DNA of 35,500 nt. Origin: Bacteroidota bacterium. GTDB taxonomy: Bacteria > Bacteroidota > Bacteroidia > Flavobacteriales > Schleiferiaceae. Numbering within the stretch: position 1 is the stretch's first letter; each line of letters opens with the position of its first letter. Under the pieces are notes generated by a model. It worked only from the letters and a program-made list of their open reading frames with translations, did no database searches and was not told where the DNA came from. The DNA is taken from assembly GCA_003045825.1 (NCBI GenBank), contig PZPA01000011.1, forward strand, positions 1 through 35,500, given 5' to 3'. Both the position numbers and the translations under genes were made by a program. Below are positions 2,598-14,707 of this stretch, piece by piece.

Positions 2598-5500
2598 GGT
2601 CTTCTGCTTTATTCAATTCATTAAAGTAGGTCTCGGTTGCCATCTCCCTAATCGCTGGTTCTACGGACTCACGAGTCGGTCTTTCCCCCGTCCAGAAATG
2701 CTTCAAGTTCACGCGCGAATCGTTCACCAGTGCCATGAGCGAAGGCAATACGACCAACGTTAAAAGTGTAGCAAACCCAATACCGTAGGCAATTGAAACG
2801 GCCATAGGAATAAGAAATTGAGCCTGGAATGAGGTTTCTAAAATTAAGGGGGCTAGACCAGCAACGGTGGTGACTGTGGTCAAGAAAATGGCACGGAATC
2901 GGCTCAAGCCTGCATTATAAATAGCCTCATAAACAGGCTGTCCACTCTTTACGTTCAAATTATACTTACTAACCAGTACTAAAGAATCGTTTACAATGAT
3001 TCCAATCAATGCCACCACGCCAAGGAAACTCAAAATTGACATCGGCATGCCGTGCAGCCAGTGTCCCCATGCTACACCCGTCATACTCAACGGAATCAAA
3101 AGCATAATGACAATGGTCTGAATCAACGAGCGGAAGGTAAAAGTGATGGTCAATACAATAAGAAAGAGAATCAACGGCATGACCGTTTTTGAACTGTCTT
3201 GGGTTTTCTGACTTTCCTTCTGCTGGCCTTCATAACGCGCATCTACGGAAGGAAATTGGGCAAATATTGCAGGCAATATATCACTCTGTATTTGCGCCAA
3301 AAGTGCCGGTGCAGATCCATTTGGGCTAGCTAGATTGGTCTCAACTCGAAATTCTCGCTGTCCGTCCAGGTGGTTGATGTTTACCGTTCCTCGTTCAATC
3401 GTATACGTGGCCAATTCTCTTAGCGGCACGCTTCCCTGGGGCGTAGTGATCAGCAATTCCTCTAAGTCCCATAACTTCTTACGGTCCTTCTCTGCCAAAC
3501 GTACCCAAACCTTTACTTCGTCTTCACCTCGCTGCAAGCGTTGCACTTGCGCACCAAAGAAAGACTCACGCACCTGAGTCATAATGCCCCCGGGGGTGAG
3601 CCCTAAGTAACGCGCTTTATCTGTCAATTCTAACGTAACCTCACGAATCCCTTTCTGGTCGTTATCAATAACGTCCGTCAACGCATCCATGCTTTTAAGT
3701 TTGGATTTTAAAATCTCCTTCGCAGCCTTCAACGCTTCGAGGTCATAGGACACCAACGAAATTGAGATCGGCTTGCCAAAAGCTTGCGCTCCACCGAAAC
3801 TCAGATTGTCCGCACCTGGGATTTCTCCGGCAGCTTTTCGTATGTCGTTTTGAATAAGGAACGATGGTGTTAATCGTGTTTCTGAATCCAGGAGATTTAC
3901 GTTTAATCGGGCCTTAGAGGTCAGCGGGCCTACATTTTTCTGTACGGCAACCACCACATCTAAACCGTCTTCGCGTTCCGCTTTGTACTGCTCATTCACG
4001 CGCCAAACAGCATCTTCAATGTGGTTGATCCATTTCAAAGTCACCTCGTCGTTCGTCCCCGCAGGCATGTCAAGGTTGATGTCTATGTTATCGCGCTCAA
4101 TGAAAGGGAAAAATTGAGTCCTAATAATTCCACCACCAATGGCACCAAAGGTCACCAGCATGATTGCAAAGAAGAATGCAAGGGTAATCAACTTATTGTT
4201 GAGCGACCACCTCAAAAACGGGGCATAGTAGCGGTCTCTAAATTTGAAAAGCGCACCCGTAGCTATGCGCTGTACCGGATTCATTTTCTCATCGCGTTGA
4301 AGCTTTGCATGGCTCAAGTGAGTCGGTAAGAACAATAAACCCTCCACTAAAGACACCGCCAAGGTTGCCACCACGATAAAGGCCATTTCAGAGAAGAAAT
4401 CGCCCGGACGGCCCGCTAAGAAAAAGAAGGAAGAAAACGCAATAATGGTCGTTAAGACAGCGCTAACTACGGATGGAATAACCTCCAATGTCCCTTCCAG
4501 TGCTGCCCGCATGAGCGGCTTTCCTTTTTCAAAATGTGCGTAGATGTTCTCTGCAATTACTATCCCGTCATCTACGAGAATACCAATGACTACAATCATC
4601 CCAAAGAGCGAGATTACATTGATGGTAATCCCAAATTGCGTGGCAAGAATGAACATACCGGCAAACGAGACAGGAATTCCGATAGCAACCCAAAAGGCCA
4701 ATCGCCAATTCAAAAACAGAGTCAACAACAATAACACCAGGAAGAAACCTAGCAAACCGTTCTCGAACAATAGATCCTTCCGTTGATCCAAAGTCACCGA
4801 AAAATCACGAATCACATCGATCTGCATGTTCCCCGTGCTGGCATTGTATGAATCTACATACCCGCGCAAATATTCACAGGTTTGCAGGAGGTCTTCTTCA
4901 TCCGTGTTATTTACGGTAATCTCTACCGATGGAATGCCATTAAATTCTGCACGCGTTGGCGCATCGGCCCAGCGATTTCTTACTGTACCTACATCCTTAA
5001 GACGCAGTGTTTCGCCGCTTGGACGCGCATAGACTATAATGTTTTGAAGCGCTTCTGCGTCGTATTGTTTGTTGCGCGAACGAATGAGCATTTCTTCCTG
5101 CGTACCCTTAATGGTACCACCGGTAATATCTAGGTTTGTTGTGCGCAATGCAGTGGCAATCTGGCTTAAAGAAAGATTGTACTTACGCAGGGTACTTTTA
5201 TCTAGAGCAATTTCTATTTCTTCATCTGGAAAACCGCCTAAGGAAATTTTAGAAATTCCTTCTACCAAACGCAGCTCACGTTCTATGCGTCGCGCCTCTT
5301 GTTTCAAGCTAACAAGGTCTACTCCCTCGCCGCTCAACGCCATACTAACTGCAAGGGTAAGGTTTTCTCGTTTCGCAACCCGAATAGGCTCCATGCCGGT
5401 CGGAAAAGAGGGGACGCTTTCAACCGCATTTTTCACGTCTTCCAACACAAGATCTGTATCGTAGCCCTTTATAACCTCAACACTGATCGTCGCGCTGTTC

Positions 5501-5760
5501 TCAGATGAGGTAGACGTGTATTGCTCTACACCCGTCAATCCTTTAAGGTTCTGCTCAATTTTATTGACGACGCCTTCTTCCATCTCTTCAGGAGAAGCAC
5601 CTGGATAAACTGCCGTAACCGTTATATTCCTCGACTCTACTAAAGGGAAAAACGTTGTGTTCAGGGCGTTGTAGCTGACCCATCCGAAAAAGAAGATTCC
5701 GATGAGCAGTGTGTCTACCCCTACGGGATATTTAATAAAAAATTCTATGAGTTTTTTCAT
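2590..5760 (-). CDS. RND-family efflux permease (AcrB/HAE1-like)
   Basis: Inner-membrane proton-driven export pump, 1056 residues, the usual size. Seen in order: N-terminal TM1 (about 10-30), first periplasmic porter domain starting with F-P-x-V/L-E-x-R and the VYPGASPEEMEE motif (51-62), TM2-TM6 with the proton-relay pair Asp397-Asp398 in the GILVDDGIVIAEN motif, TM7, a second porter domain, and TM8-12. The TM10 equivalent reads GIIVNDSLVLVSKYN, so the lysine of AcrB is replaced by Asn-Asp, as in a subgroup of RND permeases. The gene starts 12 bases after the adaptor gene and overlaps the channel gene. Substrate range is not predictable; the TetR control suggests an inducible drug, bile-like or lipid compound. 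Confidence 0.95.
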   Translation of the reverse strand: MKKLIEFFIKYPVGVDTLLIGIFFFGWVSYNALNTTFFPLVESRNITVTAVYPGASPEEMEEGVVNKIEQNLKGLTGVEQYTSTSSENSATISVEVIKGYDTDLVLEDVKNAVESVPSFPTGMEPIRVAKRENLTLAVSMALSGEGVDLVSLKQEARRIERELRLVEGISKISLGGFPDEEIEIALDKSTLRKYNLSLSQIATALRTTNLDITGGTIKGTQEEMLIRSRNKQYDAEALQNIIVYARPSGETLRLKDVGTVRNRWADAPTRAEFNGIPSVEITVNNTDEEDLLQTCEYLRGYVDSYNASTGNMQIDVIRDFSVTLDQRKDLLFENGLLGFFLVLLLLTLFLNWRLAFWVAIGIPVSFAGMFILATQFGITINVISLFGMIVVIGILVDDGIVIAENIYAHFEKGKPLMRAALEGTLEVIPSVVSAVLTTIIAFSSFFFLAGRPGDFFSEMAFIVVATLAVSLVEGLLFLPTHLSHAKLQRDEKMNPVQRIATGALFKFRDRYYAPFLRWSLNNKLITLAFFFAIMLVTFGAIGGGIIRTQFFPFIERDNIDINLDMPAGTNDEVTLKWINHIEDAVWRVNEQYKAEREDGLDVVVAVQKNVGPLTSKARLNVNLLDSETRLTPSFLIQNDIRKAAGEIPGADNLSFGGAQAFGKPISISLVSYDLEALKAAKEILKSKLKSMDALTDVIDNDQKGIREVTLELTDKARYLGLTPGGIMTQVRESFFGAQVQRLQRGEDEVKVWVRLAEKDRKKLWDLEELLITTPQGSVPLRELATYTIERGTVNINHLDGQREFRVETNLASPNGSAPALLAQIQSDILPAIFAQFPSVDARYEGQQKESQKTQDSSKTVMPLILFLIVLTITFTFRSLIQTIVIMLLIPLSMTGVAWGHWLHGMPMSILSFLGVVALIGIIVNDSLVLVSKYNLNVKSGQPVYEAIYNAGLSRFRAIFLTTVTTVAGLAPLILETSFQAQFLIPMAVSIAYGIGFATLLTLVVLPSLMALVNDSRVNLKHFWTGERPTRESVEPAIREMATETYFNELNKAEDHE

Positions 5761-5772
5761 CGCTGGCTTCGG

Positions 5773-6888
5773 TTAATTTTTTACCGCTACAACGATGGTT
5801 CCAGATGCTGCTTTGAGCGTTGGCGCATCAGCGAGCAACTGCCCGTTCTTGAGTCCTTTGATGACAATACTTTCATCAAGCCATTCCACTACTTCGACAG
5901 CAGTTTTCGCAAGTAAAGAATCCGATTCCACGGTATACACGTATTCGTTATCAAAAACCATATAAGCCGGTACGCGAAGGGCATCATACACCTCAACGTT
6001 AGCAATAGTTCCTGTGAGGTACATGCCTTCTTTGAGATCATCGCCACGAAGTGAAGCAATGAGGTTGATGTTTTGGCTTGCATCATCTACAACAGGGCTA
6101 ATACGATCTATCTGACCTTTCCAGGTACCCTTGCGATCCGGGCTAGTGAACGTAATGGACTGGCCCAATTTTAATTCGTCTGCATAGGACAAAGTCACGG
6201 CCCCCTTCAATTCAAAGCCGCCGGATCCAACAAAACTTCCCAGAGCCCTTCCTGGACTCACTAAATTTCCTTTTTTCACTGAGGCCTGAGCCACAACCCC
6301 ATCAAAAGGCGCTCGAATACAAAACTTCTCTAAACGCTCTTCGGCGCTTTTAACTTGATAGTAGGCAGTAGGTATACCACGAGCAATCAAGAATTTCTCC
6401 AGCTTGGTCGCCGTCTTTGGCATCGGTACTAATGAGCTATTGAGACTCAACGCATCATAATAGGCTTCCCAAGCCGCGTAAGCTTCTGGGTAATCTGCAT
6501 TTAAATCAGGTAAAATGGCCAGTACACTATTGATAAAACTACCTTTAAGACCCATCACGTTCGCCTGCGCTTCCGCATTGTCCAATTGCAACATGATCTG
6601 CCCCTTCCTAAATGCAACACCTTCCAAGAACGGTGCATCCCCATCCAAAAAAGTCCCACTAACTTCGGCCAATAAGTCTACACGCTCTGTAGCGCTCAAC
6701 TTCCCATATACAGTTATGGGCAAGGCAATGGTATCGTTCGCAACTTCAATCACTTTTACGCGCGGCTTAATCCTATCTTCACGTATTTCCTCCTTCGTCG
6801 ACATCGCGCTTAGCTTGCCTTTGACGAAAATTCCTATTGCAAGAATCGCCAGAGCGACTACAATATTTCTGATCAATTTACTATTCAT
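5773..6888 (-). CDS. RND efflux periplasmic adaptor (membrane fusion protein, HlyD/AcrA type)
   Basis: Periplasmic adaptor linking the permease to the TolC-like channel. 371 residues: one N-terminal hydrophobic helix (about 7-24) as anchor or uncleaved signal, a beta-barrel/lipoyl half from about residue 60 (VYGKLSATERVDLLAEVSGT), a helical hairpin region (about 105-190), the returning lipoyl half with the APFDGVVAQASVKKGNLVSPG motif (about 198-220), then the beta-barrel and membrane-proximal domains. The hairpin has an aromatic and proline-rich section (near residues 125-160) less heptad-regular than AcrA. It is the first gene of the operon; a TetR-type operator lies about 120 bases upstream. 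Confidence 0.93.
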   Translation of the reverse strand: MNSKLIRNIVVALAILAIGIFVKGKLSAMSTKEEIREDRIKPRVKVIEVANDTIALPITVYGKLSATERVDLLAEVSGTFLDGDAPFLEGVAFRKGQIMLQLDNAEAQANVMGLKGSFINSVLAILPDLNADYPEAYAAWEAYYDALSLNSSLVPMPKTATKLEKFLIARGIPTAYYQVKSAEERLEKFCIRAPFDGVVAQASVKKGNLVSPGRALGSFVGSGGFELKGAVTLSYADELKLGQSITFTSPDRKGTWKGQIDRISPVVDDASQNINLIASLRGDDLKEGMYLTGTIANVEVYDALRVPAYMVFDNEYVYTVESDSLLAKTAVEVVEWLDESIVIKGLKNGQLLADAPTLKAASGTIVVAVKN

Positions 6889-7006
6889 GTGTATTTAGGT
6901 TAGTTATATGTATTTCGTACCGTCGTATTTCTTCAAAAAAGCCCATTCCCCTGAGTCCTGCAAGGAAAACCACTTTGCATCGACTCTCATCGCATATATT
7001 TTGTGT

Positions 7007-7030
7007 AAATAAGTAAGTACTCACTCATTT
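7007..7030. promoter_or_regulatory. Candidate TetR-family operator upstream of the efflux operon
   Basis: Imperfect 24-bp palindrome: AAATAAGTAAGT followed by ACTCACTCATTT, with 10 of 12 positions symmetric. It overlaps the stop codon of the tetR gene and lies 119 bases upstream of the adaptor start. Its core GTAAGT-nn-TCACT is the same as in the operator over the tetR start (12 of 16 positions identical when aligned), which suggests one repressor binds both. Binding itself is inferred. Confidence 0.65.
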
Positions 7031-7548
7031 ATTAACAATTCTCGCAATCCACGCAAACACAAAACGCTGCTTTCTTCATCTCCGTGAAAGGCCAACAGCA
7101 ATGTTCGTTCCAACACCTCAACTGCAGTGCGTGCAACCGCTTCCTCCGAACCATGACCCACGCTCGATATGGCCCAACGCAAACGTTCCATTACAAAAGA
7201 ATCCATTTCTCGACGCACCAGGTCTTCCTGCGTTATCCGAATCATTGCTATCCAAGCGAGTAAATCGGGACTATTTTTGAATTTATCAAGCTGAATAGAA
7301 GTAAACGAGCGCAATACTTCAGTAGGATCGGCATCGTTTAAGAAACCGTAAATCAATCCGGCTCGTGCTCTTTCACCCGCAGACAACACCGCCAGAGCAA
7401 GACCGTTTTTAGATTTAAAATGGCGGAATATCAGCGCTTCACTTACGCCTGCATGCGCCGCTATTTTTGCCGTCGACATCCCCGTGAGGCCGTGTGCAGC
7501 AATAAGCGTTTGAGCGCTTTGAAGTAATGCTTGTTGTTTTTCAGTCAT
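7021..7548 (-). CDS. TetR/AcrR family transcriptional repressor (efflux regulator)
   Basis: DNA-binding repressor, 175 residues. The N-terminal HTH (about residues 20-47) reads GLTGMSTAKIAAHAGVSEAL followed by IFRHFKSKNGL, the classic TetR recognition helix ending in Y/F-x-H/Y-F. The C-terminal helical half (about 60-175) is the ligand and dimer domain and is not conserved enough to name a ligand. It sits immediately upstream of and codirectional with the adaptor-permease-channel operon, and a perfect palindrome covers its own start codon. This is the usual layout of an autoregulated efflux repressor relieved by a pump substrate. Confidence 0.92.
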   Translation of the reverse strand: MTEKQQALLQSAQTLIAAHGLTGMSTAKIAAHAGVSEALIFRHFKSKNGLALAVLSAGERARAGLIYGFLNDADPTEVLRSFTSIQLDKFKNSPDLLAWIAMIRITQEDLVRREMDSFVMERLRWAISSVGHGSEEAVARTAVEVLERTLLLAFHGDEESSVLCLRGLRELLINE

Positions 7549-7568
7549 TGTAAGTGTTCACTTACAAT
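7547..7568. promoter_or_regulatory. Perfect palindromic TetR operator over the tetR start codon
   Basis: A perfect 22-bp palindrome: the half-site ATTGTAAGTG, a TT centre and the exact complement CACTTACAAT. It covers the first base pairs of the tetR start codon and its leader, in the 43-bp gap between the tetR start and the polA stop. Symmetry, length and position are those of TetR-family autoregulatory operators. A shorter inverted repeat, ATACAA-AAA-TTGTAT (7570-7584), adjoins it and may belong to the promoter. Confidence 0.8.
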
Positions 7569-7591
7569 AATACAAAAATTGTATCCGGAAA

Positions 7592-10426
7592 TTAATGTGC
7601 TTCCAACCAAGTTTTCCCCGTACCCACTTCAGCAATCATTGGAACCGCCAAATCAACGGCTGCTTCCATTTTTTCTACGACCAACGCTTTAAGTGCCTCG
7701 AGTTCTCCTTCGACTGCATCAAAGACCAGTTCATCGTGCACCTGAAGGAGCATCTTCGATTTTAATCCCTCTGCACGCATAGCTCGATCAATCTCTATCA
7801 TGGCAAGTTTGATAATATCTGCTGCAGAACCTTGTATAGGCGCATTTACCGCATTTCGTTCGCTGTGCCCCCGAACCACCGCATTGCGACTCTCGATATC
7901 TTTAAGGTACCTGCGTCGACCCGTTATAGTCTCTACATACCCATTTTCGCGTGCAAAAGCGACCTGATCATCCATATAGGCTTTGATTCCCGGATACGTT
8001 CGGAAGTAACCGTCAATAGCGGCTTTGGCTTCTTTACGACTCATATCCGTTTGCTGACTTAAGCCGAAAGCGCTAACACCATAGACAATACCGAAATTGA
8101 CTGTTTTCGCATTGGAACGTTGTTCGCGAGAAACTTCTTCCAATGGCACTTCAAAAACCTTCGCTGCAGTGGCTTTGTGAATATCCTCTCCGTTTCGAAA
8201 CGCCTCGATCATCGCTTCATCCTTTGCTAATGCAGCAATCACACGCAACTCTATTTGGCTGTAATCTGCGGCTAACAAAACGTGTTGTTCGTTCGCGGGG
8301 ACAAACATAGCCCGAACGCGACGACCGTTTTCCGTGCGGATCGGTATGTTTTGCAGGTTGGGGTTGGTTGAACTCAACCTCCCAGTAGCCGCTACGGTCT
8401 GGTTGTAGCTGGTATGAATCCGCCCCGTTGCAGGATGGACCAGTTCAGGTAGCGCATCTACATAGGTACTCTTCAATTTTTTCAATTCTCGGTAGGTCAA
8501 AATAGAATCCACAATCTCATGCTTGCTCCTATAGCCCTGTAAAATATCCTCCGATGTTGCGTATTGGCCTGTTTTTGTCTTCTTGGGCTTGTCTGATAAT
8601 TTCAAATCTTCGAACAATACTTCACCCAGTTGACGCGGGGACCCCACATTGAAAGGCCGGCCAGCCAATGCTACAATAGTCCCCTCGAGCTCGTCTATCA
8701 ATTGGCCCAATTCACGACTGTAGCTGTTTAACGAGGCAACATCTACCCTTATGCCTTCTCGTTCCATCCGCGCCAAGACGGGCACCAATGGCATTTCAAT
8801 ATTTTCAAACACCTTCAGCACCCCAGTTTCTTTCAATTTTGGCTCAAAAACCGCTTTCAACTGAAGGGTGATGTCTGCATCCTCTGCTGCATAGTCGACC
8901 ACAGCTTCCACAGGCACTTCGCGCAGTGTCTTTTGCATTTTACCCTTTTTACCAACGACACTTTCGTAGGAAATGGTGGTATAATTCAAATAGGTCTCCG
9001 CAAGAATATCCATTTTGTGGCGCATATCCGGCTGCAGTAAATAATGTGCGATCATCGTATCGAACAATGGACCGCGCACTTCTATGCCGTAGTTCAGTAA
9101 TACACCGATATCGTATTTTAAATTCTGACCAATCTTTCGGACCGATTCAGATTTGAAAAACGGCTGAAACGCGGCAATCCACTCTTGTGCCTGGTCACGC
9201 TCCTGCGGTACGGGCACATAATAGGCTTTACCTGCTTCAAAAGAGAAACTCATACCAATCAGTTCGGCAGAAAGAATATCTAATGATGTCGTTTCTGTAT
9301 CAAAGCAAACCTCTTCTTTTTCAAGCAACAGTCGGCCCAATTCGCGAGCTTCCGGCAAGGTCTCAATACATTGATACATGTGATCCGCTGTCGCAATCGA
9401 CAATCTTCCGCTGGGTACGTCCGCTTCAGTTATCGCCTGCTGCGGTTCGCCAAAAAGGCTCATTTGATCATTACTGGCCAATGCTACCTTCTTTGTTGGC
9501 ACTGGCTTCGCGCTAACCTCATCCGCGGCATCGCGCTGCAATCCCAACCTTCTGCCTAGTGTGCGGAACTCTAATTCTTCAAACAGATCTAAAAGGGCTT
9601 CTTGGTCCCATGGATCTCTAGTCAGTGAATCTGGGTTTAAATCAATAGGAACTTCAAGAATGATCCGCGCCAACTTTTTTGAGAGCAGCCCTAATTCCGC
9701 ATTATCTCGAATTTTCTCGCCAAGTTTGCCTTTGATCTCATCAGCATGCGCCAATGTTTCTTCTAAAGAGCCGTATTGCTTCAAAAGTTTAGACGCAGTC
9801 TTCGCACCGACACCGGGTAAACCGGGAATATTGTCCACAGCATCGCCCATCATACCTAGGTAGTCAATGACCTGTTCAACGCGATCGAGTTCAAATTTTT
9901 CACAGACCTCCGTCTCTCCCCAGATTTCCGGCGGATTGCCGCCGCGCGCAGGGCGGTACATAAATATGTTTGGTGATACCAATTGGCCAAAGTCCTTATC
10001 GGGCGTCATCATGTACGTGGTATACCCCTCTTTTTCGGCTTGCTTCGCCAAAGTTCCAATCACATCATCTGCTTCATACCCCGGAACACCTAAGGCCGGG
10101 ATTTTAAAAGCTTCCAAAAGCCTGTGGATATAGGGCACGGCCAGCTTTATCGCCTCCGGCGTTGCATCCCGGTTCGCCTTATAGTCTGGAAAAATCTCGT
10201 GGCGTTCAGTAGGCTGGGGCAAATCGAAACAAACGGCGATGTGCGTAGGATTCTCTTTAGACAACAGGTCCAGTAGCGCACTTGTAAATCCATAAACTGC
10301 ACTTGTATCAATCCCACCAGAAGTCACTCTTGGGTTTTTTGCAAAGGCAAAATACGCCCTGAAAATGAGCGCATAAGCATCTAATAAGAACAGCTTTTTG
10401 CTTTGATCCGGTGTTTCTTGACCCAT
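7592..10426 (-). CDS. polA: DNA polymerase I (5'-3' exonuclease, proofreading and polymerase domains)
   Basis: Replication and repair polymerase that removes RNA primers and fills gaps. 944 residues with all three domains. The 5' nuclease (1-about 300) has the LFLLDAYALIFRAYFAF start, GYEADDVIGTLA, TPDKDFGQLV and the HhH motif PGLPGVGAKTASKLL. The 3'-5' exonuclease (about 345-540) keeps its catalytic residues: Asp376-Thr-Glu378, the N-L-K-Y-D motif and Y-A-A-E-D-A-D. The polymerase (about 560-944) has motif A DYSQIELR, motif B RSNAKTVNFGIVYG with Phe in the nucleotide-selection position, and motif C QVHDELVF (Asp898). Proofreading appears intact, unlike Taq-type enzymes. ATG at 10426 gives a short N-terminal tail before the first conserved strand. 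Confidence 0.98.
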   Translation of the reverse strand: MGQETPDQSKKLFLLDAYALIFRAYFAFAKNPRVTSGGIDTSAVYGFTSALLDLLSKENPTHIAVCFDLPQPTERHEIFPDYKANRDATPEAIKLAVPYIHRLLEAFKIPALGVPGYEADDVIGTLAKQAEKEGYTTYMMTPDKDFGQLVSPNIFMYRPARGGNPPEIWGETEVCEKFELDRVEQVIDYLGMMGDAVDNIPGLPGVGAKTASKLLKQYGSLEETLAHADEIKGKLGEKIRDNAELGLLSKKLARIILEVPIDLNPDSLTRDPWDQEALLDLFEELEFRTLGRRLGLQRDAADEVSAKPVPTKKVALASNDQMSLFGEPQQAITEADVPSGRLSIATADHMYQCIETLPEARELGRLLLEKEEVCFDTETTSLDILSAELIGMSFSFEAGKAYYVPVPQERDQAQEWIAAFQPFFKSESVRKIGQNLKYDIGVLLNYGIEVRGPLFDTMIAHYLLQPDMRHKMDILAETYLNYTTISYESVVGKKGKMQKTLREVPVEAVVDYAAEDADITLQLKAVFEPKLKETGVLKVFENIEMPLVPVLARMEREGIRVDVASLNSYSRELGQLIDELEGTIVALAGRPFNVGSPRQLGEVLFEDLKLSDKPKKTKTGQYATSEDILQGYRSKHEIVDSILTYRELKKLKSTYVDALPELVHPATGRIHTSYNQTVAATGRLSSTNPNLQNIPIRTENGRRVRAMFVPANEQHVLLAADYSQIELRVIAALAKDEAMIEAFRNGEDIHKATAAKVFEVPLEEVSREQRSNAKTVNFGIVYGVSAFGLSQQTDMSRKEAKAAIDGYFRTYPGIKAYMDDQVAFARENGYVETITGRRRYLKDIESRNAVVRGHSERNAVNAPIQGSAADIIKLAMIEIDRAMRAEGLKSKMLLQVHDELVFDAVEGELEALKALVVEKMEAAVDLAVPMIAEVGTGKTWLEAH

Positions 10427-10522
10427 GGAATAGATTTTGCGATTGGCTACAGAAAAATAAGGGAGTTAAGATAGCTACTTCAGTGCAAATACCGAGTTTT
10501 GCAAGCAAACAATCCTAACCGC

Positions 10523-11779
10523 ATGGAGTTGTTATTAAGCATCCACACAGATATTATGATTTTCAGAATATTCTTCACCCTCGGGTTCATGCTCGCCATT
10601 GACTTATACGCCTACCAAGCCTTTAAAACCGTCTTTCGTAGCAGCGCCACCCCCTATGTATATTGGGGCATCACGATTGCTTATGTTATTTTCTCCATCA
10701 CGCTGGCCTTAATGATGACGAGTGGAAAAGTAGAATACCGCTACCTCGGTTTACTCATGGGTGCATCCATTTTACTTGCTGTCCCTAAGCTCATTGCCAT
10801 TGGCCCGCTTCTTATAGAAGATATAGTGCGGTTGAGCCAATTTGTCTTTCGCGGTGTAACCACCCAACCCACTTTAATGCCTGAGCGCAGAGCCTTCATT
10901 TCGAAATTGGCCCTGGGCCTCGCCGCCATACCCTTTTTAGGGATTATCGACGGCATTTGGAAAGGACGCTATCGCTATCGAGTTATTTCCCACACTCTGG
11001 AATTTGATGACCTACCCGATGCTTTTGACGGCTTTACGATCGCACAAATTTCCGATATACATAGTGGATCTTTCGACAACACAGAAAAAGTTCAATACGG
11101 CGTAGATATGGTAAGTGCACTTGGAGCCGATTGTATCGTATTCACTGGCGATATGGTGAACAATACCGCCAGCGAAGCCGAACCGTGGATTCCCGTTTTC
11201 CAAAGATTAAAGGCAAAATCAGGCATCTTTTCTATCCTAGGCAACCACGACTACGGTGATTATTGGCGTTTTGCTTCACCGGAGGCCAAAGTCGCGAATA
11301 TGGACAGGCTGAAAGAAATTCACGCTGAAATGGGCATGGACCTCTTACTCAACGATAGCCGTTTTTTTGAGCGCAACGGACAGCGGTTGTACCTTGCAGG
11401 TGTTGAAAATTGGGGATTGCCACCATTCCCTCAGTACGGCGATTTAAATTCTGCGTTAAATCAAATCCCAGAAGATGCATTCACAGTGCTCTTGAGTCAC
11501 GATCCGTCGCATTTTGACGCCGAAGTAAAACAACACCCAAACAAAATACACCTGACACTTAGTGGACATACACACGGCATGCAATTTGGCATTGAAATCC
11601 CTGGGTGGATCAAATGGTCACCTGTAAAATTCAAATACCCCAAATGGGCCGGTCTTTACCCAGAGCAGGACGGGAGAGTTTTGCATGTAAACCGTGGGTT
11701 TGGATTTTTAGCTTTCCCAGGTCGTGTGGGGATCTGGCCGGAGATCACGCACATCACGTTAAAGAAGAAGGTCGCTTAG
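10523..11779 (+). CDS. Membrane-anchored metallophosphoesterase (YkuE/YaeI-like)
   Basis: Calcineurin-like phosphoesterase with a di-metal site. The N-terminal about 110 residues contain three to four hydrophobic segments; the catalytic domain follows with the ordered motifs ISDIHSG (Asp-x-His), TGDMVNN, LGNHDYGDY, LLSHDPSHF and SGHTHGMQ, all metal ligands present. Relatives act on phospholipid-derived or other phosphomonoester substrates at the membrane; the substrate here is unknown. An in-frame TTG lies at 10499, but the ATG at 10523 is preferred (418 residues); a further in-frame ATG lies at 10556. The gene diverges from polA and its TAG stop overlaps the stop of the converging crtY-blh gene by four bases. 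Confidence 0.9.
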   Translation: MELLLSIHTDIMIFRIFFTLGFMLAIDLYAYQAFKTVFRSSATPYVYWGITIAYVIFSITLALMMTSGKVEYRYLGLLMGASILLAVPKLIAIGPLLIEDIVRLSQFVFRGVTTQPTLMPERRAFISKLALGLAAIPFLGIIDGIWKGRYRYRVISHTLEFDDLPDAFDGFTIAQISDIHSGSFDNTEKVQYGVDMVSALGADCIVFTGDMVNNTASEAEPWIPVFQRLKAKSGIFSILGNHDYGDYWRFASPEAKVANMDRLKEIHAEMGMDLLLNDSRFFERNGQRLYLAGVENWGLPPFPQYGDLNSALNQIPEDAFTVLLSHDPSHFDAEVKQHPNKIHLTLSGHTHGMQFGIEIPGWIKWSPVKFKYPKWAGLYPEQDGRVLHVNRGFGFLAFPGRVGIWPEITHITLKKKVA

Positions 11780-13755
11780 AATCGGTCCTTGTAAAGCTTC
11801 GACATGAAGTAGATGTGAGGCAAACTGATCGCGCTGAGGAAGACTAAAAAATAGCTCGACCAGGCCAGCATTGAATTCTTATCGAATCTAAATACCAACA
11901 GGAACAGTACCACCGCGCCGATAGTAAATGGCAGGGCCTTCATCCACATTTCTAAATTTGTCCATTTGTGCGACAACTTTAAGTGGTTCCATCCAGATAG
12001 ACTGTGTTGTAAAACAAAGTAAATCCCGAATGCGGTAGCCAAAGGTAAAGTAGCAGTCAAACTGAGTGTCACCATCGCAACGATCCAGGGGATCGAACGA
12101 AACCAAAGCCCCATAAAAAGCCCAAGTGTTAGGGTCATTCGGATGGCCATATTTACAAATTCAGCAGGCCAATCCACCCTTGTGATGCCCATAACTTCCA
12201 GTACTGTATTGACCTCGCCTAGATGTGGCAACAAAATCATAGCCAGTAGCATTGTTCCCCACAAAAACGACAACCCGATACTAGGGAAACCCCATTCGCG
12301 CAAGTCCGTTTCTCCGAAATGCCAAGCGCTGTAGACTAGAAAAGCGACTAAACCTATGACCGGACTGGCCGCCCAAAATAAAACGACAAGGAGCATGATG
12401 AAGCAATAGCGCAAAATGAATTTTGGCAATCGGTCCTTGTTTGCGTGGCTGTAGCCATCCAGTGCCCCATGTGGAATGCCGTATAAAAACAACAAGAAAA
12501 CCAATATGGCCTGCAAGCCGTAGGTAATATAGGTAGGCAATAATACAACCGCGATTGAAGCAAAAACCGTGAACAAAAGCGGTGCCCAACGGGAAGGCTT
12601 AGCTACCACGAAGGCAATAAAGGAGGCCGCCAATGCCCAGAGAAACTTTAAAACCGGCAATCGGGCAAACATGCTTAATTCCCATTTAACGGAGGACTTT
12701 TCGTCCAAGAACTGAAACACCTTACTCGCTCTTTGGGTAGCAAACAGAGATTCAAAAATTTCTTTACCCCAATGTGGTTTATGCTTTAAAATATGCAGCA
12801 GTAGATGGTCGTAAAAATTAAAGCGATCCATCTCGCTTTTTGGGAGACGCAGCCACGAAGACTCTTTTCGCTCTTGCGCTATACCGCTGGCCAATTCCTT
12901 TGCATGCTCAAACATGCTCTTAAAGGCATAACCGGTAGTGGCTTTTATTTTTCCCGCACGCGCGCCGGTAGAAATGATTCGCGCATCTTGATCTTTTACT
13001 TCAGCGTACTGTGTCATAGGAATTGTCCCGCGCTCCTCATGTACGATATCGAAAGATAAACCAGGAGATAGTAAGTAGTTGCGAAGGTGATTACTTGCCA
13101 ATTCATGCGGCAATGGTTCGCTTCCGAATCGCGTCATTTCAACCAATGCCTCTTTCGTTCCCGTTGGAAGCACGTACATGAACTGTGTGAAACCGTTTTG
13201 GGGAATATTGAAGTCCATAAGGGTCATCTCATTCGGCGTCCAATAATCTTCCTGCAGCTCTACTCGCCAACCCACAAAACTTTGTAACACTAAGGGACCC
13301 ATTGGCTCCTTAATTCTTGGCGGTCGACTGTCGAACACCTGCTGAACTTCCCAAGTATAATCGCCACTTGACAATTCTACCGCATCCGTCCTGGTTTTCA
13401 ATCCATCAACCGCGCCTCTGATCCAGACAATGTTCTCATAGGACTGCGCTACGCTCTTAACCTTATTATACAGTGCAGTACTTTCCACCATATAATAATG
13501 TTGGTCCTCGAGCGATTCCAGTCCGTCGGCAGTAGCTATTGTATCCCATTGATGGGACAACACGTCGCGAAGTTCGGTACGTATCTTGTGTTCTGAATCA
13601 GCCCAAAAACAATAGGTTTTATCGTTTTTTAACTTCGCGTCCGGTTCAAGGATAAGGATCTTAAGCGTATGCAACAGATTCTTTCGCTCCAATTCAAGCA
13701 AAAGCAACCCGTTGGCAGCGCCCATTCCTAAAAACCCTATATCGTACCGGTTCAT
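11776..13755 (-). CDS. Fused lycopene beta-cyclase / Blh beta-carotene 15,15'-dioxygenase (CrtY-Blh fusion)
   Basis: Two enzymes in one 659-residue frame, predicted to convert lycopene to beta-carotene and cleave that to two retinals. Residues 1-about 375 are a complete CrtY-type cyclase: Rossmann FAD/NAD motif G8-x-x-G10-x-G12, FDSRPP near 141-146, LQSFVGWRVE (157-166), YVLPTGTKEALVEMT with Glu206 at the usual catalytic position, and the C-terminal FLDEKSS..FARLP block. Residues about 376-659 are a polytopic Brp/Blh protein with the His sites GIPHGALDG (His429), AWHFGETD (His479), LQHS (His584) and WNH (His591), expected iron ligands. No stop, frameshift or repeat separates the halves. It diverges from the rhodopsin gene, whose chromophore it would supply. 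Lycopene-forming genes (crtE, crtB, crtI) are not in the window. Confidence 0.93.
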   Translation of the reverse strand: MNRYDIGFLGMGAANGLLLLELERKNLLHTLKILILEPDAKLKNDKTYCFWADSEHKIRTELRDVLSHQWDTIATADGLESLEDQHYYMVESTALYNKVKSVAQSYENIVWIRGAVDGLKTRTDAVELSSGDYTWEVQQVFDSRPPRIKEPMGPLVLQSFVGWRVELQEDYWTPNEMTLMDFNIPQNGFTQFMYVLPTGTKEALVEMTRFGSEPLPHELASNHLRNYLLSPGLSFDIVHEERGTIPMTQYAEVKDQDARIISTGARAGKIKATTGYAFKSMFEHAKELASGIAQERKESSWLRLPKSEMDRFNFYDHLLLHILKHKPHWGKEIFESLFATQRASKVFQFLDEKSSVKWELSMFARLPVLKFLWALAASFIAFVVAKPSRWAPLLFTVFASIAVVLLPTYITYGLQAILVFLLFLYGIPHGALDGYSHANKDRLPKFILRYCFIMLLVVLFWAASPVIGLVAFLVYSAWHFGETDLREWGFPSIGLSFLWGTMLLAMILLPHLGEVNTVLEVMGITRVDWPAEFVNMAIRMTLTLGLFMGLWFRSIPWIVAMVTLSLTATLPLATAFGIYFVLQHSLSGWNHLKLSHKWTNLEMWMKALPFTIGAVVLFLLVFRFDKNSMLAWSSYFLVFLSAISLPHIYFMSKLYKDRF

Positions 13756-13873
13756 TGATTAAATGTCGATTTGACCCTTTATAATTTGTCTAACAGCTCC
13801 TGTTCGATTAAGTTCGCTAAACCATACTAATTAGAGGTATATATAGCCATTTATAACAATTTACCCCCAATAT

Positions 13874-13891
13874 ATAAGTGTTTTCACTTAT
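13874..13891. promoter_or_regulatory. Inverted repeat in the rhodopsin / crtY-blh divergent promoter
   Basis: ATAAGTG-TTTT-CACTTAT, seven-base perfect arms and a four-base centre, 73 bases upstream of the rhodopsin ATG and 119 bases upstream of crtY-blh. The half-site TAAGTG/CACTTA equals the core of the TetR operator at 7547-7568, but with a four-base instead of two-base centre. It may be an operator or a transcript hairpin; the A/T-rich context makes chance more likely than for a GC-rich palindrome. Confidence 0.4.
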
Positions 13892-13893
13892 TT

Positions 13894-13908
13894 TTCACGT
13901 GTCGTGAA
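13894..13908. promoter_or_regulatory. Palindromic candidate operator upstream of proteorhodopsin
   Basis: TTCACG-TGT-CGTGAA, a perfect six-base inverted repeat with a three-base centre, 55 bases before the rhodopsin start and three bases after the preceding inverted repeat. In an otherwise A/T-rich 208-bp intergenic region this GC-containing palindrome stands out. The position suits control of the rhodopsin promoter. No clean TTTG-N19-TAnnTTTG promoter is visible for either gene, so exact promoter placement is open. Confidence 0.45.
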
Positions 13909-13963
13909 CAAAAGAATATTTCGTAAGTTAAGTGGTAGTTATAACCTTTAATATTTTAACACC

Positions 13964-14707
13964 ATGTCATTATTTTTAGACGGATCTATGGGATTCGATC
14001 CGAACGATTACGTATCGTTCACATTCTTCGCCGGATACATGGCGATGTTAGCCGCTTCGGTATTCTTCTTCTTCGAAAGAAGTAGAGTTTCAGACGAGTG
14101 GAAAACTTCAATGCTCGTTAGTGGGCTTATTACTGGTATTGCAGCAGTGCATTACTACTACATGCGTGATTTCTACGCTGCCGGTAATGGAAGTCCAGTA
14201 GTTCTACGTTATGTAGACTGGACGCTAACCGTACCACTTATGTGTGTTGAGTTCTATTTGATCACCAAAAAAGCTGGTGGTACGAAGTCAATCTTGTACA
14301 AACTGATCCTAGCTTCAGTTGCGATGCTCGTAACTGGTTACATCGGTGAGGCATTTTACGCAAACGATCCTGTTTCTTGGGTTTGGGGTGCTATTTCTGG
14401 TGCTGCTTACTTCTACATCGTATGGATGGTATGGAAAGGCGACGTTGCTAAGTTGGCGAACAATGCAGGTGGTGCAGTAGCGAAAGCAAACAGTGCCCTA
14501 GCGAAATTCGTAATCATCGGTTGGGGTATTTACCCTATCGGTTACATCTTAGGTACAGCAGGTGGATTCTTCGGAATGGACCTAGGTATCGAAGCAAACG
14601 AAGAAGTACTAAACTTGTGCTACAACCTTGCAGATGCAATCAACAAAATTGGATTTGGTCTTGTTATCTATTCTCTAGCGATCAGCTCAGAAAAAGAAGC
14701 AGCTTAA
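13964..14707 (+). CDS. Proteorhodopsin, green-tuned light-driven proton pump
   Basis: Seven-helix retinal protein that exports protons in light. Over 247 residues the key positions are all visible: helix B His63 (partner of the Schiff-base counterion), helix C RYVDWTLTVPLMCVE with Arg82, proton acceptor Asp85, Thr89 and proton donor Glu96 (a DTE outward proton pump, not the NDQ sodium or NTQ chloride type), and helix G NLADAINKIGFG with Asp224 and retinal Lys228. The residue matching GPR position 105 is Met93, known for green-absorbing flavobacterial rhodopsins. The N-terminus is short, without an obvious cleaved signal. The divergent neighbour makes retinal. A strong terminator follows, so it is probably monocistronic; codon choice looks more uniform than in neighbours, consistent with high expression. 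Confidence 0.98.
   Translation: MSLFLDGSMGFDPNDYVSFTFFAGYMAMLAASVFFFFERSRVSDEWKTSMLVSGLITGIAAVHYYYMRDFYAAGNGSPVVLRYVDWTLTVPLMCVEFYLITKKAGGTKSILYKLILASVAMLVTGYIGEAFYANDPVSWVWGAISGAAYFYIVWMVWKGDVAKLANNAGGAVAKANSALAKFVIIGWGIYPIGYILGTAGGFFGMDLGIEANEEVLNLCYNLADAINKIGFGLVIYSLAISSEKEAA

Follow-up and report, generated by a model that had tools for sequence, protein, structure and literature searches.

The window analysed here (the first 35,500 nucleotides of contig PZPA01000011.1, from a Bacteroidota bacterium of the family Schleiferiaceae) carries a single gene, crtY-blh, in which a CrtY-type lycopene cyclase dependent on flavin adenine dinucleotide (FAD) is joined to a Brp/Blh beta-carotene 15,15'-dioxygenase (Table 1). 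We consider it probable that the product is a two-step enzyme leading from lycopene to retinal, that it arose once in the Bacteroidota by an insertion or deletion (indel), and that its CrtY half is dedicated to retinal. An earlier reading of the letters of this stretch, hereafter the sequence-only reading, had described a full cyclase running into a full dioxygenase in one polypeptide, and the profile searches agreed: both Pfam domains were found at full length, above their cut-offs and in one frame. PF05834 (Lycopene_cycl) scored 149.9 bits against a gathering cut-off of 23.4 and matched profile positions 1-374 of 380, PF15461 (BCD) scored 86.3 bits against 28, and these were the only Pfam families that matched the fused protein (E ≤ 0.001). 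The Blh half also exceeded the cut-off of the NCBIfam Brp/Blh model TIGR03753 (114.7 versus 95.25). The CrtYcd-type family PF18916 was not found in the fused protein by the Pfam search, its cyclase being of the PF05834 family. The plus strand across the gene is riddled with stop codons.

Table 1. Features of the window and of two further carotenoid loci (coordinates of the latter refer to the stretches named)
Feature	Coordinates	Strand	Extent or content	Basis
Fused crtY-blh gene	11776..13755	-	659 aa; ATG at 13755, stop codon 11776-11778	Open frame
CrtY-type FAD-dependent lycopene cyclase domain	12646..13743	-	Residues 5-370	PF05834, residue counts, fold match
Junction	12496..12645	-	Residues 371-420	Model, hydropathy, dN/dS
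Brp/Blh beta-carotene 15,15'-dioxygenase domain	11791..12495	-	Residues 421-655	PF15461, TIGR03753
Divergent intergenic region	13756..13963	.	208 bp	Conserved blocks in 7 aligned sequences
Proteorhodopsin	13964..14707	+	247 aa; RYVDWTLTVPLMCVE segment	PF01036
Lycopene-supply locus, L139 (G000:C98:26000-44000)	3043-9795		crtI, crtB-like, idi	
Second carotenoid cluster, L140 (G000:C95:5000-16000)	frames 4139-8827		CruF-like, CrtD, TerC, CrtYcd, CrtZ-like frame	

The crtY-blh fusion is real. Other contig records yielded 117 stretches encoding relatives; all of the best 80, which were kept, had both domains in one frame, and the nearest six (L002-L007; record titles Flavobacteriales, Schleiferiaceae and Cryomorphaceae) were 85-90% identical to the window's protein over its full length. 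The ratio of nonsynonymous to synonymous substitution rates (dN/dS), measured against the 90% identical relative L002, was 0.065 for the cyclase, 0.056 for the junction and 0.038 for Blh; synonymous divergence (dS) was mostly saturated against the other five, L003-L007. The window's genome is a draft of 112 contigs, which could favour a spurious union of two genes through misassembly or a frameshift, but the same join in 80/80 kept relatives, their single clade and the purifying selection over the junction make such an artefact practically negligible, and the worry about an assembly join that accompanied the sequence-only reading is thereby answered. Synonymous differences between L002 (positions 4001-5977) and the window amounted to a proportion of 0.60 for the cyclase, 0.28 for the junction and 0.42 for Blh; the dip at the junction may reflect recombination between both lineages.

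For the residue and tree analyses, we assembled 95 distinct fused proteins (the window's, 80 from genome contigs and 14 from a genome search) and 57 separate Blh proteins, 20 with an adjacent crtY and 37 without; one fused fragment (L090) was counted apart, and L179 (Blh in two pieces) and L001 (a copy of the window) were left out. Identical proteins were counted once among the 95, L012 and L014 nonetheless sharing their last 300 residues, and 18 of the 80 loci, whose contigs match contigs of genomes of the window's family in length, are probably duplicate records of these. In the cyclase half, G10 and G12, E206 and the FLDEKSS block (349-355) lie where the sequence-only reading had placed them. 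E206 was glutamate in all 125 aligned cyclases (95 fused, 20 from adjacent pairs and 10 stand-alone) and is presumably the catalytic glutamate identified by mutagenesis of Pantoea CrtY; the FAD-type glycines G10 and G12 were kept in every aligned cyclase row with a letter there. Four histidines had been proposed for the Blh half, and three of them are family-wide: His429 was conserved in 152/152 Blh rows (95 fused and 57 separate), and His479 and His584 with one exception each. The fourth, His591, was histidine in 90/95 fused but only 3/57 separate proteins, and the fourth invariant histidine is His647 (151/151 rows with a letter there; 94/94 fused and 57/57 separate). According to a review, Blh 66A03 needs His21, His78, His188 and His192 (PMC9227343), of which the first three are matched by residues 429, 479 and 584, a mapping made by spacing only. 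The signature HS..GW.H is present already in the unfused pair L094 and is therefore probably older than the fusion.

The junction showed no sign of a flexible linker. In the AlphaFold2 model of the fused protein (predicted local distance difference test score, pLDDT, 88.1; predicted template modelling score, pTM, 0.77), the junction is helical throughout, with block pLDDT values of 84-94 over residues 341-420 and no disordered segment, and hydropathy likewise predicted hydrophobic helices for residues 371-420. The spacing from D351 to H429 was 73-78 aa (median 78) in the 95 fused proteins, and the equivalent tail plus head in unfused adjacent pairs came to 71-103 aa (median 76.5); from this similarity we infer that the fusion neither removed sequence nor added a flexible linker. 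A fold comparison, which covered the cyclase half only (model residues 1-378), indicated a flavoprotein fold and gave as best match the geranylgeranyl-reductase-like structure 3oz2 (Z 23.6, root-mean-square deviation 4.3, 350 residues aligned); with that coverage, the absence of any Blh structure from its matches is uninformative. When the whole fused protein was compared by sequence with solved structures, no match was obtained at E up to 1.

The fused proteins formed one group in the Blh tree (45 fused of 84 rows; Shimodaira-Hasegawa-like approximate likelihood ratio test, SH-aLRT, 90) and in the cyclase tree (45 fused of 70 rows, including 10 stand-alone CrtYs and omitting the cut cyclases L191 and L192; SH-aLRT 98). 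In a joint tree of 38 rows, the 24 fused proteins grouped together with support of 97/97 and in 95% of 200 bootstrap trees, and L094, an unfused pair of the window's family, stood next outside them (100/98); the Blh tree placed L094 and L105 just outside the fused clade, in a fork that it leaves unordered (99). All 20 unfused adjacent pairs had the order crtY then blh, and in 19 of them the genes overlapped by 1-64 nt, never in frame, the overlap length presuming that blh starts at the most upstream ATG, GTG or TTG. Together with the single clade, this arrangement points to a single origin in the Bacteroidota, in which one small indel in an out-of-frame overlapping crtY-blh pair likely produced the fusion, neither part being lost. 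In the four stretches of family f26 (L175-L178), the unfused crtY and blh genes overlap by 37-49 nt, and three of the four carry a divergent rhodopsin in a layout like that of the window. The fused genes of the window's own family occupy two or more positions in the joint tree: the one from genus g15 (L115) clusters with a family f24 genome (99/96), away from the window's genus, and the g17 genes are placed close to the window's with weak support (83/89). Such positions suggest that transfer from lineage to lineage, or repeated loss, came after the fusion. The 956-residue frame of genome G318 (L141), considered as another Blh fusion, was set aside, as it lies among many long overlapping frames and the profile search detected no cyclase domain there.

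In genomes with the fusion, a second Blh is almost never present, but a second cyclase usually is. The window's genome, which is 99.5% complete, has one BCD gene and one full PF05834 gene, both of them the fusion, and one rhodopsin gene. The fusion was the only Blh found in 82/83 fused genomes (31/31 of the window's family and 51/52 further ones), and CrtYcd was also present in 64/83 (28/31 and 36/52, respectively). Another full CrtY occurred in seven of the 52 further genomes, none of these seven having CrtYcd, and nine of the 52 had neither. The 52 comprise 48 genomes reached through loci, which come without kinship or completeness figures, plus G128, G291, G307 and G405; in one of the listings behind these counts CrtY matches were taken only at E up to 1e-15, and short CrtY fragments beside CrtYcd in G034 and G035 were not scored as a second CrtY. 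Within the family, for which the genome lists of the cross-tables were compiled by hand, two cyclases were counted in 32/37 genomes with crtY linked to blh and in 0/18 with unlinked blh (Fisher p 2e-10), the counts and the test treating related genomes as independent. By class, CrtYcd was found in 28/31 fused genomes, 4/6 with adjacent genes, 0/3 with blh and a distant CrtY, 15/15 with blh and no full CrtY, and 0/7 with CrtY and no blh. The sequence-only reading had presented a two-gene light-harvesting module needing only lycopene; the fusion, however, is not the sole lycopene cyclase, the genome having a second one of the CrtYcd family.

This second cyclase (PF18916, 140.7 bits) is encoded on contig C95, in a cluster that also holds a frame that matched no family model and that we take to be CrtZ-like from its motif. 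The composition of the cluster suggests that its product is a monocyclic xanthophyll, for example saproxanthin or myxol. It resembles the myxol cluster of Nonlabens, which, however, has a CrtY-like cyclase sharing 26% identity with Pantoea CrtY; the Nonlabens CrtY alone converted lycopene to beta-carotene, and CrtY together with CruF gave mainly monocyclic 1'-hydroxy-gamma-carotene (PMC11855829).

Building on the domains, key residues, single clade, purifying selection, sole Blh and second cyclase read from the sequences, we propose the following scheme. Lycopene would enter the FAD-dependent CrtY domain, where both ends would be closed to give beta-carotene; kept near the membrane Blh domain, beta-carotene would then be cleaved there at the 15,15' bond to give retinal for the adjacent proteorhodopsin, both activities being those expected of the families. 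Membrane pigments would be fed by the second cyclase, which in this genome is a CrtYcd encoded near CrtD- and CruF-like genes, and the fused CrtY would serve retinal. Dedication of the CrtY half to retinal is most likely because most fused genomes hold a separate lycopene cyclase. As CruF can divert the product of the free Nonlabens CrtY (PMC11855829), a cell with CruF would presumably gain from a cyclase close to Blh. The direct hand-over of beta-carotene from one active site to the other, raised in the sequence-only reading, is a hypothesis. A stricter form of the scheme, a dedicated retinal line in which CrtY is insulated from the general pool and rigidly joined to Blh, and retinal is set independently of the xanthophylls made by a second cyclase of a usually unrelated family, is put forward only tentatively.

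Several observations weigh against the two-step, retinal-dedicated enzyme or narrow it. The cyclase half fell below the cut-offs of both NCBIfam lycopene-cyclase models (TIGR01790, 113.7 versus 209.5; TIGR01789, 69.7 versus 215.2) and is therefore assigned to PF05834 only. CrtY-type monocyclases are known, one of them from a flavobacterium (PMC2889829 and PMC11855829), so the fused CrtY need not close both rings. Residue 588, which by spacing matches His192 of 66A03 as given in the review cited above, was histidine in 0/95 fused and 15/57 unfused proteins. The cyclase tree placed the unfused L094 CrtY with stand-alone CrtYs (98) and not beside the fused clade; the order there being unresolved, the exact unfused parent is unsettled. 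Rhodopsin lay within 2 kb in 47 of the 63 fused loci having 2 kb on both sides, leaving 16/63 without it. Finally, 12/83 fused genomes had no second cyclase, three of them, of family f24, being at least 99% complete, and a dedicated cyclase is therefore not universal; related genomes, moreover, entered all these genome counts as if independent.

The fusion may instead be two independent enzymes, fixed at 1:1 and co-located as the outcome of a chance indel, with no channelling and with beta-carotene mixing freely in the membrane, an explanation that we find plausible if somewhat doubtful. It is favoured by the unfused state, which is already an overlapping crtY-blh pair, and by the second cyclase found in four of the six adjacent unfused pairs of the family, so that linkage, not fusion, tracks the second cyclase and the fusion may add only a fixed ratio and nearness. 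The distances of the two domains are also no better correlated in fused proteins (0.79) than in adjacent unfused pairs (0.83) and therefore give no argument for fusion-specific co-evolution. Against it stand the maintenance of one fused clade whose mean protein distances are near 0.6 and whose junction is almost constant in length, and the absence of any unfused member inside that clade among the sampled rows.

Another explanation makes the CrtY half the complement of CrtYcd: gamma-carotene from CrtYcd would receive its second ring from the fused CrtY before cleavage, and would be a substrate as much as lycopene. The CrtD- and CruF-like genes in the genome's CrtYcd cluster are typical of monocyclic pigments, and the Algoriphagus CrtYcd is cited as a monocyclase (Tao 2006, as cited in PMC2889829). 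However, with another CrtY in 7/52 further fused genomes and no second cyclase in 12/83, CrtYcd is not required, and we judge this route unlikely. It is less probable still, and by a wide measure, that one half is catalytically dead and either anchors the other in the membrane or regulates it. The sub-threshold NCBIfam scores of the cyclase and the published Blh histidine position that is not kept would fit a dead half, but key residues are retained in both halves, dN/dS against L002 is low in halves and junction alike, and the cyclase half is probably needed in the 12 genomes with no other lycopene cyclase. The two-step enzyme with a retinal-dedicated CrtY half remains the reading we prefer.

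As the sequence-only reading had it, a proteorhodopsin gene is divergent from the fusion, the plus-strand PF01036 gene facing the minus-strand crtY-blh across 208 bp. Its best PDB matches were the proteorhodopsins 9jov and 9jou, and we take its RYVDWTLTVPLMCVE segment to be of the proton-pump type (D-T-E) with Met at the tuning site. In an alignment of seven sequences, the gap contained conserved blocks near both starts, the strongest beside the rhodopsin start. A sigma-70-type promoter scan of the 208 bp gave 2 hits against 1.4 expected, which is no significant signal, and the one shared promoter that had been suggested for the two genes is not borne out by a convincing promoter call. Several of the seven sequences carry in the gap an inverted pair, TTTTGTTC ... 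GAACAAAA, about 90-100 bp apart, the second copy being imperfect in the window; it is possibly a regulatory element. In three other stretches, L109 (G043; 5103-6028), L179 (G133) and L087 (G004), rhodopsin or Blh is split or interrupted by a stop, a possible trace of the loss of phototrophy or of sequencing error. L115 (G034) and L120 (G035) have two or more rhodopsin genes or pieces plus short CrtY fragments, as if the rhodopsin-fusion unit had been partly duplicated.

Stretches of the fused protein served as queries in the search for relatives, and only the best 80 of the 117 stretches found were retained; that search is therefore uninformative on frequency, for which we turned to an even sample of the phylum. 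Of 395 Bacteroidota species, 59 had a BCD gene and five of these, the window's own included, had it fused; fusions were called here from frame lengths, and loci were inspected in 39 of the remaining 58 genomes. Elsewhere in Bacteroidota it is thus the rule that crtY and blh are separate, as the sequence-only reading had noted for other rhodopsin clusters, while the fusion belongs to a whole clade and is not peculiar to this genome. In the window's family a BCD gene was found in 55/88 genomes, as a fusion in 31 (G060 and G077 inferred from contig-end pieces; in G063 the start is cut by the contig end), adjacent to crtY in six and unlinked in 18. Every one of the 25 genomes in the window's genus belongs to the fused group, G077 by inference. 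Viral contigs gave 46 pattern matches and no relatives. Some records bear odd titles, such as Streptomyces griseus (L026) and Candidatus Parcubacteria (L059), and look like mislabelled or mixed bins.

The genes expected to supply lycopene lie on contig C98. They adjoin an extracytoplasmic function (ECF) sigma factor, a MerR/B12-binding regulator that is CarH-like but below the CarH cut-off, and a photolyase-like gene, and this carotenoid locus is possibly light-regulated. The crtI gene passes a bifunctional phytoene desaturase/3,4-desaturase model, so that we only assume its end product to be lycopene. In the window, the fusion gene converges with a plus-strand metallophosphoesterase gene (10499-11779), and the 3' ends of the two overlap by 4 nt, at 11776-11779.

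To our knowledge, it is an open question how bacteria with a proteorhodopsin apportion their small lycopene pool to retinal on the one hand and to carotenoids with a protective or antenna role on the other. The fusion, nearly always the sole Blh but seldom the sole cyclase, makes this division testable, and if active it would let laboratory hosts turn lycopene into retinal with a single gene. Each of the two enzymes is well known; neither their union nor the pattern of a dedicated cyclase was found in the literature searched, which consisted of openly licensed full texts, and a bacterial CrtY-Blh fusion was not described there, although it may be described elsewhere. Close to it are the overlapping crtY-blh pairs of Bacteroidota (such as L093, L094 and L095), which share families, order, overall length and sometimes an adjacent rhodopsin with the fusion but yield two polypeptides, the start of blh overlapping the end of crtY out of frame in 19/20. 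In Dokdonia, too, retinal genes adjoin proteorhodopsin, with blh beside it, but blh and crtY are separate (PMC3587595). Consecutive carotenoid steps are likewise combined in one polypeptide in the fungal phytoene synthase/lycopene cyclase (PMC2889829) and in the thraustochytrid CrtIBY (PMC10016063), but these stop at beta-carotene, use a CrtYcd-type cyclase and have no Blh. The nearest precedent found is the four-domain CrtI-CrtB-CrtYc/d-Blh protein of Thecamonas trahens (PMC10016063), in which a cyclase is likewise followed by Blh in one polypeptide, read there as retinal supply; it differs in its CrtYcd-type cyclase, in the two upstream enzymes that are also fused, and in its protist host.

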